A stretch of DNA of 39,716 nt from Clostridium sp. (lineage in GTDB: Bacteria; Bacillota; Clostridia; Acetivibrionales; Acetivibrionaceae): positions 1-39,716 of the forward strand of contig JAAYTO010000115.1 in the NCBI GenBank assembly GCA_012523755.1, in the 5' to 3' direction. The notes below the pieces were generated by a model. The model did no database searches, was not told the DNA's origin, and saw only the letters and a list, made by a program, of their open reading frames with translations. Each line of letters opens with the position of its first letter. Position 1 is the stretch's first letter. Made by a program: the position numbers and the translations under genes. This document shows, in pieces, positions 24,759 to 26,975 of this stretch.

Positions 24759-24876
24759 TACTTGGTAGCATAATTAATTTCCGGAGCACTTTGAGCACAA
24801 ACCCAAGGAATGCATTCTTGACATTTTTTAAGATGGGTAATTAGTTTTGTTTAAAACTTGAGGGAACATATTGGAT

Positions 24877-25629
24877 ATGAGCTACTTTAAAACAACAGGA
24901 ATTGTTATAAAAGAAATAAATACCGGAGAGGCTGACAAGATAGTTACGATATTTTCTAAAAACAAAGGAAAGATTTCCTGTTCAGCCCGGGGGGCAAGAA
25001 GGCCTAAAAGCCGCCTTGTGGCGGGTACTCAGCTTTTGTGCTATAGTGAGTTTGTGCTTTTTAAGGGTAAGGACATCTACTCGATTAACAGTTGTGATGT
25101 TATTGAACCCTTTTATGATATAAGAAATGACCTTGAAAGACTTACTTATGCCGCACACATGACAGAACTGATAAACGATGTTATTCAGGAAAATCAGCCT
25201 GCAACCAAGGTTTTGCAGCTGTTTTTAAACTCTCTTTATTTGCTTTCTAAAACCGGCAGATCTCCCATGCAAATAGTCAGGGTATTTGAATTAAGACTCC
25301 TTTCAATTTTGGGCTATGCACCTTCGGTGGGTGGTTGTGTAGTCTGTACAAACAGTCAGTTTGACAGCATGTCTTTTAGCTTTCAAAAGTGCGGTTTTAT
25401 TTGCAAAAGCTGTACAATGCAGGATAAAAGTGCTGTAGAGCTTTCTGAGGGTGCTGCGAAGGCGTTGAATTATATTGTTTACAGCCCACTAAACAGCCTG
25501 TTCAGTTTTGAGGTTTCGGACAGTGTTTTAAATGAACTCGGAAGAATATCAAGAAGGTTCACAAGGGACATATTGGAAAAGGATTACAAAAAGCTGGATT
25601 TTCTCAAAACCTTAAATATCAATACATAA
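24877..25629 (+). CDS. recO: DNA repair protein RecO
   Basis: KTTGIVIKEINTGEADKIVTIFSKNKGKISCSARGARRPKSRL, Cys zinc motif CVVC...CKSC; ORF opens at TTG 24871. Confidence 0.96.
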   Translation: MSYFKTTGIVIKEINTGEADKIVTIFSKNKGKISCSARGARRPKSRLVAGTQLLCYSEFVLFKGKDIYSINSCDVIEPFYDIRNDLERLTYAAHMTELINDVIQENQPATKVLQLFLNSLYLLSKTGRSPMQIVRVFELRLLSILGYAPSVGGCVVCTNSQFDSMSFSFQKCGFICKSCTMQDKSAVELSEGAAKALNYIVYSPLNSLFSFEVSDSVLNELGRISRRFTRDILEKDYKKLDFLKTLNINT

Positions 25630-25653
25630 AAAAAGCTTTTTAATAAAAGCTTA
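25629..25653 (-). terminator. Second minus-strand terminator downstream of the GEMM RNA
   Basis: Minus strand AAGCTTTT-ATTA-AAAAGCTT-TTTTTATG; only the minus direction is followed by a U tract. Confidence 0.7.
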
Positions 25654-25654
25654 T

Positions 25655-25879
25655 AAAAAAAAGGCGGTATAAGGAAATATCGTATGACCTATTTCCCTTA
25701 ATTTATTTTAAAGAGTATAAACAGAACTTTTAATGGTAACCTGGCAATCATGGTTTGGAGCACTCTGCCCTAAACGTTAGACCCAAGGTTTTGCGTCACC
25801 GCCTTTCAGCGATTTTGCCCTGTTTCATAAGTCACAGTTTATATCTCCTTATACCTGTCGGGAGGAAATATTGAATTAT
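25655..25879 (-). ncRNA. c-di-GMP-I (GEMM-I) riboswitch RNA, apparently without a downstream gene
   Basis: Minus strand ACAGGGCAAAAUCGCUGAAAGGCGGUGACGCAAAACCUUGGGUCUAA...AUUGCCAGGUUACC carries the GEMM-I conserved blocks (AGGGCAAA, GAAA tetraloop P2, GACGCAAA, GGNCUAA, GGUUACC). Aptamer core about 25731-25835; U8 tract at 25662-25655. Confidence 0.85.
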
Positions 25880-25885
25880 ATATTT

Positions 25886-25891
25886 ATTATA
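25886..25891 (-). promoter_or_regulatory. Extended -10 promoter element for the GEMM RNA
   Basis: Minus strand TGCTATAAT (perfect TGnTATAAT), weak -35 TTTATT at 17 nt. Confidence 0.6.
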
Positions 25892-26001
25892 GCACATAGT
25901 AAATAAAAAATAAAGATGAATTTTGGATTATTTTATGATTTGTATGTAAAATATTAATTTACGAAAAAAATAAATATAACACTGTAATTTAGAAATAATT
26001 G

Positions 26002-26312: not shown

Positions 26313-26975
26313 ATGTCAGGATATAATCTGGATGAAAACAAGGGAATATTTAGCCTTTTTGGAATCAAAAATCTTACAAAACTTATTAAACAGGGAGCCG
26401 CAATGGATGTAAAGCATTTTAAAATGTATGAATACATGAATTGTACTGTGCTTGAAAAAAGCGAAAATGACATTAAGCTTGAAATGAAAGACCATACACA
26501 GGAGACTCTTTTCTTTCCCGGAGATCATGTTGTTTTGAACTATTCAAACAATAACGAGCTTTATGTTATAGATGGCACTATTGTTTATGTTTTCAGTATT
26601 AATCCTCCGGTGATTAAAGTCAGAATGAATAAATGTGAAAAGTTGAAAAACCTGAGGAAGCATGAGAGGTATTATGTTAGTCTTATGGCCAACATCAGGG
26701 TTTCCGGATCTAATAAGCCATTCTTTGCTGTTGTTAAAAACATGAGTTCCGGAGGAATTAAAATCAACAGTGACGAGCGTCTTATGCCGGAAGATGTGCT
26801 TGAGGTTGAGGTTATACTTGACAGGACAAACAAGCTTGTTTTCAGCGGAGCAGTAGTAAGAAAAAACAAATTAGGAAATTATTTTGAGTACGGAATCGAA
26901 ATTAAAGGAATATCCGAGTCTAATATAAAATGTCTTTACCACTATTTAAAGTGGCTTGGTTCGGAATACAGGTAA
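26313..26975 (+). CDS. PilZ domain protein (predicted c-di-GMP receptor, YcgR-like N-terminal region)
   Basis: LRKHERYYVSL (RxxxR) and VVKNMSSGGIKI ([D/N]xSxxG) PilZ motifs; RBS AAAGGGG. Confidence 0.88.
   Translation: MSGYNLDENKGIFSLFGIKNLTKLIKQGAAMDVKHFKMYEYMNCTVLEKSENDIKLEMKDHTQETLFFPGDHVVLNYSNNNELYVIDGTIVYVFSINPPVIKVRMNKCEKLKNLRKHERYYVSLMANIRVSGSNKPFFAVVKNMSSGGIKINSDERLMPEDVLEVEVILDRTNKLVFSGAVVRKNKLGNYFEYGIEIKGISESNIKCLYHYLKWLGSEYR

Follow-up and report, generated by a model that had tools for sequence, protein, structure and literature searches.

The window analyzed here, a 39,716-nt stretch of a Clostridium sp. genome assembly, carries a c-di-GMP-I (GEMM) aptamer on its minus strand in the gap between recO and a gene for a PilZ-domain protein (Table 1). 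The aptamer matches the RF01051 covariance model with 71.2 bits against a gathering score of 35, and it is complete, with all of the conserved core elements and with compensatory changes in P2 and P3. The core motifs GGCAAA, CGCAAA and CC are invariant in 42 homologs. We take the purine-binding core GGGCAAA, GACGCAAA and the C's after P3 to be of the c-di-GMP type and not the A20 cGAMP type. We read the RNA and its relatives as predicted sensors of c-di-GMP. They differ from ordinary RF01051 members in having no cis gene, in a distal closing stem that encloses the aptamer, and in the class-specific elements AAACAG and CUGUUUAU.

The predicted RNA would run from about 24 nt 5′ of GGUAUAAGG to a U tract, and the related RNAs are likewise free-standing units of ~185–215 nt. 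As judged from the sequence, the unit has its own promoter and intrinsic terminator, as a base-pairing sRNA should, and its aptamer lies in a noncoding transcript with no ORF. Unlike a cis riboswitch, it does not precede a co-directional gene as part of its 5′ leader; the gene that follows is the convergent recO. The order recO–RNA–PilZ gene is the same in 13 genomes. PilZ domains are a c-di-GMP effector type, and at this locus the PilZ gene is divergent from the RNA in all 13.

Table 1. Features of the RNA locus in the window.
Feature	Position	Strand	Basis
Promoter: TTTATT (25914-25909), 17-nt spacer, extended -10 TGCTATAAT (25894-25886)	25886..25914	-	sequence reading
Predicted single-stranded 5′ tail, putative start ~25879, with anti-Shine-Dalgarno motif CAAUAUUUCCUCCC (25873-25860)	25856..25879	-	
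Closing stem, 5′ arm GGUAUAAGGAGAUAU, includes SD-like AAGGAG	25841..25855	-	
c-di-GMP-I (GEMM) aptamer	25732..25829	-	RF01051, 71.2 bits, E 3.6e-12
Alternative helix B: UGUGACUUAU (25836-25827) with AUAGGUCAUA (25692-25683)	25683..25836	-	MFE, ligand-free predicted fold
Alternative helix C (anti-aptamer): AAACAGGGC (25825-25817) with GUUCUGUUU (25727-25719)	25719..25825	-	MFE
Aptamer P1 extension: AAGGAG-A-UAUAAAC (25850-25837) with GUUUAUACUCUUU (25722-25710)	25710..25850	-	competitor of helix C and closing stem
Local hairpin AGGGAAAUA / UAUUUCCUU, competitor for the 3′ arm	25671..25698	-	
Closing stem, 3′ arm AUAUUUCCUUAUACC	25666..25680	-	
U tract, putative terminator together with closing stem	25655..25662	-	sequence reading
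Second hairpin, palindromic (AAGCTTTTATTAAAAAGCTT) and flanked by T runs; putative backstop terminator in the RNA–recO gap	25633..25652	.	sequence reading
recO, convergent with the RNA	24871..25629	+	Pfam RecO_N/RecO_C
PilZ-domain gene, divergent from the RNA	26313..26975	+	Pfam PilZ

Extent and genomic setting of the family

A DNA search of 60 related genomes with a 281-nt stretch gave matches in 21 of them, often 2–4 each. From these copies and the remaining c-di-GMP-I aptamers in those genomes, 114 were then classified by the closing stem (GGTATAAGG[A/G]GATA...TATTTCCTTATACC or the variant found in copy L024), which was present in 44 and separated these from 70 ordinary aptamers. The 44 copies of the complete RNA are distributed over 19 genomes of the order with 1–3 per genome: 13 of the 14 genomes of the window's family, all five of a second family and one of a third. 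Acetivibrio mesophilus, A. alkalicellulosi, Herbivorax sp. ANBcel31 and three metagenome-assembled genomes are among the carriers. With a covariance model built from 42 members, family copies scored 137–203 bits and other GEMM-I RNAs at most 88 bits among the matches listed from 58 genomes of the order and from a draw of 391 genomes in the class. Searches of plasmid, phage and viral contigs returned no matches to the RNA. The copies fall into paralog groups A to E, and A+E and B form clades in the RNA tree. Genome order repeats within the groups, indicating that the paralogs are old and vertically inherited. Two copies stand apart: the most distant member (L024:1496-1642, from the third family, f11) has a varied stem (GGTGCAAGG/CCTTGTACC), no local hairpin and a shorter RNA, and L101:1376-1555, with no extended -10, anti-SD tail or U tract, is probably degenerate.

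An extended -10 (TGnTAnnnT) is located 25–45 nt upstream of the stem in 43 of the 44 copies. The next ORF (≥80 aa) is convergent for 34 of 43 assessable family copies versus 2 of 68 assessable ordinary aptamers, which have a co-directional ORF next in 66 cases. The rule is not absolute, since a short or medium co-directional ORF lies near L024, L093, L100 and L107. Neighbors of the other paralogs include a Tad-like pilus operon or a beta-lactamase-fold gene; for example, the group B copies at L251:750-5365 and L252 face the 3′ end of a Tad/Flp-like pilus operon (T2SSF, T2SSF, T2SSE, CpaE-like) in convergent orientation. Other layouts of c-di-GMP-I aptamers were also noted. Two tandem c-di-GMP-I aptamers precede a gene for a secreted transglutaminase-like protein (L001:1501-2686), and such pairs recur before genes of similar size (~280–305 aa) in other genomes of the family. 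A single aptamer lies upstream of a response regulator gene with a LytTR DNA-binding domain (L056:1510-2487), and similar layouts with a ~249-aa gene are seen at L053, L055, L069 and L114.

The closing stem and competing folds of the interior

The original prediction described a 15-bp long-range stem around the aptamer, and the pairing was reproduced in full: G25855–U25841 pairs without interruption with A25680–C25666 through 14 Watson-Crick pairs and the wobble G25845-U25676. Its assignment to the minus strand was borne out as well, given that the wobble position is a C/A mismatch on the plus strand, the G-U is invariant in homologs, and the RNA has its own promoter. It is the longest stem with arms >100 nt apart; of 300 dinucleotide shuffles, none reached 15 bp and four reached at least 13 (mean 8.8). 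The MFE fold of the window RNA includes the 15-bp stem and lies 4.1 standard deviations below shuffles (z = -4.1). For the closing helix in 42 aligned homologs, 100% of the counted cells are paired and the G-U wobble is present in 42/42. Because of this complete pairing and the invariant wobble, we consider the stem to be a genuine RNA-level feature, with the minus strand as the one that is read. Covariation in the helix, proposed earlier as a check, is minimal: the arms are always paired, 9 of 13 pairs never vary, and a single compensatory change is seen, from U-A to C-G in L024. That test has little power because the stem is almost invariant. That both arms are nearly invariant suggests that their sequence is constrained by more than pairing, and the 5′ arm contains an SD-like AAGGAG. 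The stem ends 3 nt before the U tract in the window copy, and a T-rich stretch immediately follows the 3′ arm in every copy except the degenerate L101. The closed RNA domain that had been described, with its stem abutting the U tract, is found across the 44 copies.

Less general are the pairings that were proposed to compete with this stem. The local hairpin exists, with nine pairs (A25698–A25690 with U25679–U25671), one base off from the interval first given for it (25671-25699). At least six consecutive pairs of it are retained in 37 of the 44 copies, and it is absent from L024. The complementarity of ACCGCCU (25668-25662) to the P2 strand AGGCGGU (25804-25798) holds in the window copy and even extends to nine pairs, but at least six consecutive pairs are possible in only 2/44 copies. 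The pairing is therefore private to the window copy and one other, and it was rejected as a conserved third state. What remains of the proposed three-way, ligand-controlled terminator is a mostly conserved competing hairpin, but neither a general third pairing nor a downstream gene. A conventional switch of this type needs such a gene, and it is unsupported here because transcription would enter the 3′ end of the convergent recO, and nearly all of the homologs likewise have convergent genes ahead of them.

The mean predicted probability of the closing stem fell from 0.97 to 0.69 when the aptamer was forced, dropping below 0.5 in 12 of 43 copies, but the window copy was unchanged at 1.0. On average, the aptamer-competent fold lies ~6 kcal/mol above the free fold in model energies computed without tertiary contacts or ligand; these contacts and the binding of ligand would need to make up the difference. 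In the ligand-free predictions, helix C (AAACAG:CUGUUU) has a mean probability of 0.85 with the closing stem at 0.97 alongside it. For helix B, 88% of cells are paired, and the helix is mostly invariant. The 5′ AAACAG element occurs in 0/70 ordinary GEMM-I copies, and the 3′ CTGTTT in 44/44 family copies versus 11/70 ordinary ones. This class specificity supports the view that AAACAG/CUGUUU is an evolved alternative to the aptamer. Step-wise folding of the window RNA, in a run that began at 25868, a few bases downstream of the putative start, gave the 5′ arm three successive partners: the tail, the CUCUUU element (P1 extension) and the 3′ arm. Two apparent covariation signals were discarded. 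An A25846-U25714 to G-C change in the P1 extension was found by hand inspection to be a one-base alignment shift, and the register of helix B in group E was ambiguous, so no claim is made for it. Two group A copies from one genus, L014 and L015, have an extra hairpin of ~45 nt inside the closed domain, between the CUCUUU element and the local hairpin.

A paralog-specific 5′ tail

Upstream of the closing stem, a C-rich core with anti-Shine-Dalgarno character is present in the tail of 43/44 family copies and 0/70 ordinary GEMM-I copies. Short unpaired C-rich motifs able to pair with Shine-Dalgarno regions are a feature of Gram-positive sRNAs of the RsaE/RoxS type, which resemble the family in this motif and differ from it in having no ligand aptamer. 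The core comes in one type per paralog group: CAATATTTCCTCCC in A, ACATTCTACCTCCCT in B, TACATTATACTCCCCTTT in C, GTACGTAAACCTCCTATTTCTAC in D and GAGGTTAAATAATTCCCCTACTAAC in E. It is 96–100% identical within groups A–E, and the upstream flank is 55–64% identical in A–C; for the 13 recO-locus copies, the corresponding values are 97% versus 64%. With this identity and a predicted unpaired probability of 0.89, the core has the properties of the conserved, accessible seed expected of a base-pairing sRNA. In groups A–C, the complement of the tail resembles an SD sequence followed by a 4–5 nt spacer and a start codon, as judged from the sequence.

For tails A, B and C, searches for conserved target mRNAs gave perfect matches only to the RNA genes themselves plus a singleton in one genome (G003), and recurrent one-mismatch AGGGGAGTATAATA/T matches fell within a conserved coding sequence (RDLGEYN...). 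Extended patterns of the tail complement found SD-like matches and no target gene conserved across genomes. A small ORF beginning in the tail or antisense to it was also considered and rejected, as the frames are short and not conserved. Across 43 copies, the tail has a predicted unpaired probability of 0.40 in the nascent 5′ piece and of 0.89 once the RNA is complete, with nascent locking only slightly stronger than that of shuffled tails (0.40 vs 0.50 unpaired). Formation of the aptamer changes the full-RNA value from 0.89 to 0.80, and a clear change is predicted only in group D. Tail accessibility therefore barely shifts with the aptamer, and the folding lends little support to ligand gating of the tail in the window copy.

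A natural deletion was found in group C, where one copy (L238:461-610; G002:C1 about 1394660-1394810) has cleanly lost the whole c-di-GMP aptamer. It retains an intact promoter, tail, U tract and both arms of the stem, and the partner strand of the internal hairpin has drifted. The pattern fits a separable output module consisting of tail and stem, although one genome cannot show selection.

Possible modes of action and precedents

On comparative grounds, the gene structure, the orphan position, the conserved closing stem and the conserved tail are the firm part of the analysis. Together they define a conserved stand-alone RNA family with a predicted c-di-GMP sensor in cellulose-degrading clostridia and no adjacent gene apparently under its control. 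We think it somewhat probable that the locus is a small RNA gene of ~215 nt, tuned by c-di-GMP and acting in trans, rather than a cis riboswitch. In the scheme we favor, the closing stem and U tract would form the transcription terminator and set both ends of the RNA. The interior without c-di-GMP would be a rod of closing stem, helix B and helix C in which the aptamer is dismantled; with c-di-GMP, the aptamer and P1 extension would form, and the closing stem may be weakened in some paralogs. The GGAG of the 5′ arm could pair with CUCC of the tail, the CUCUU element, or UUUCC of the 3′ arm, such that folding would decide whether the tail is locked or free. Each paralog would then use its own tail, when free, to pair with the translation-initiation regions of other mRNAs, and the ligand step could affect termination, stability or tail exposure. 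The broader proposal, that the family as a whole consists of c-di-GMP-gated trans-acting sRNAs with a shared aptamer-plus-closing-stem chassis and paralog-specific 5′ tails complementary to translation-initiation regions, is put forward at slightly less than even odds.

The main rivals are a c-di-GMP sponge and a read-through antisense switch. As a sponge, the RNA would titrate c-di-GMP with the closing stem merely stabilizing it, which would suit an orphan GEMM-I RNA with a closed, stable predicted fold and has a precedent in merRNA (PMC3627812). A sponge, however, would need neither an invariant paralog-specific 5′ tail nor a class-specific anti-aptamer element, and one copy lost its aptamer yet kept the tail and stem; we therefore regard it as unlikely. 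Slightly less unlikely, but still improbable, is a ligand-controlled terminator in which c-di-GMP chooses between termination at the closing stem and read-through antisense to the convergent neighbor, here recO. The U tract abutted by the stem, the competition from local hairpin and P1 extension, and the 12 of 43 copies in which the stem is predicted to weaken with the aptamer are consistent with such a switch, as is the S-box antisense RNA of C. acetobutylicum, cited in PMC3627812. Yet the neighbors differ between paralogs (recO, Tad-like pilus operon, beta-lactamase-fold gene), the window has a further terminator-like hairpin beyond the RNA, the window copy is predicted to keep its closing stem with the aptamer formed, and L024 has no local hairpin.

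Two further explanations concern the origin of the sequence. That it is a decayed riboswitch orphaned by loss of its gene might be argued by analogy to C. difficile, where 5 of 12 GEMM-I copies are orphans called possibly nonfunctional (PMC6200980), but promoter, tail, stem and U tract show strong purifying conservation across several genera and three families, and synteny is conserved in 13 genomes, which makes this very improbable. We give even less credence to a MITE-like mobile element with terminal inverted repeats that only resemble an RNA stem. The ~185-bp unit does lie between inverted repeats and is present in several copies per genome, but promoter, tail and U tract, which lie outside the repeats, are conserved too, positions are orthologous across genomes, the invariant G-U leaves the repeat imperfect in DNA while paired in RNA, and the searches of plasmids, phages and viral contigs gave no matches.

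The closest precedent, and the only free-standing c-di-GMP RNA described in detail, is merRNA of Bdellovibrio bacteriovorus, a noncoding RNA with a c-di-GMP-I aptamer and no downstream ORF that was reported not to be conserved outside of Bdellovibrio and was proposed to be a c-di-GMP store (PMC3627812). At 445 nt it contrasts with the ~185–215 nt of the present family, which has multiple paralogs, spans genera and carries an anti-SD tail. The C. difficile orphans Cdi-1-4, -5, -6, -7 and -10 are also GEMM-I RNAs without a detectable downstream coding sequence and are reported at very low levels (PMC6200980). Trans-acting or antisense-controlling riboswitches, namely Listeria SreA and the C. acetobutylicum S-box antisense RNA, are cited in PMC3627812 and share with the family an aptamer RNA that acts beyond its own mRNA, although SreA is the terminated leader of a cis riboswitch and the family has no cis gene. 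Beyond merRNA and the C. difficile orphans, the open-licence literature searched yielded no conserved, closed family of several paralogs with anti-SD tails. Open-licence papers on A. thermocellus sRNAs likewise contained nothing relevant, which does not prove absence elsewhere.

To our knowledge, nearly all riboswitches known so far act in cis. With its several paralogs, its spread over several genera and its conserved tail, the family offers a way to test in culturable bacteria whether a second messenger directly controls a trans-acting RNA; its lineage includes Acetivibrio, together with relatives of interest for cellulose degradation. If the proposal is true, one second messenger would govern several post-transcriptional regulons without any cis gene.
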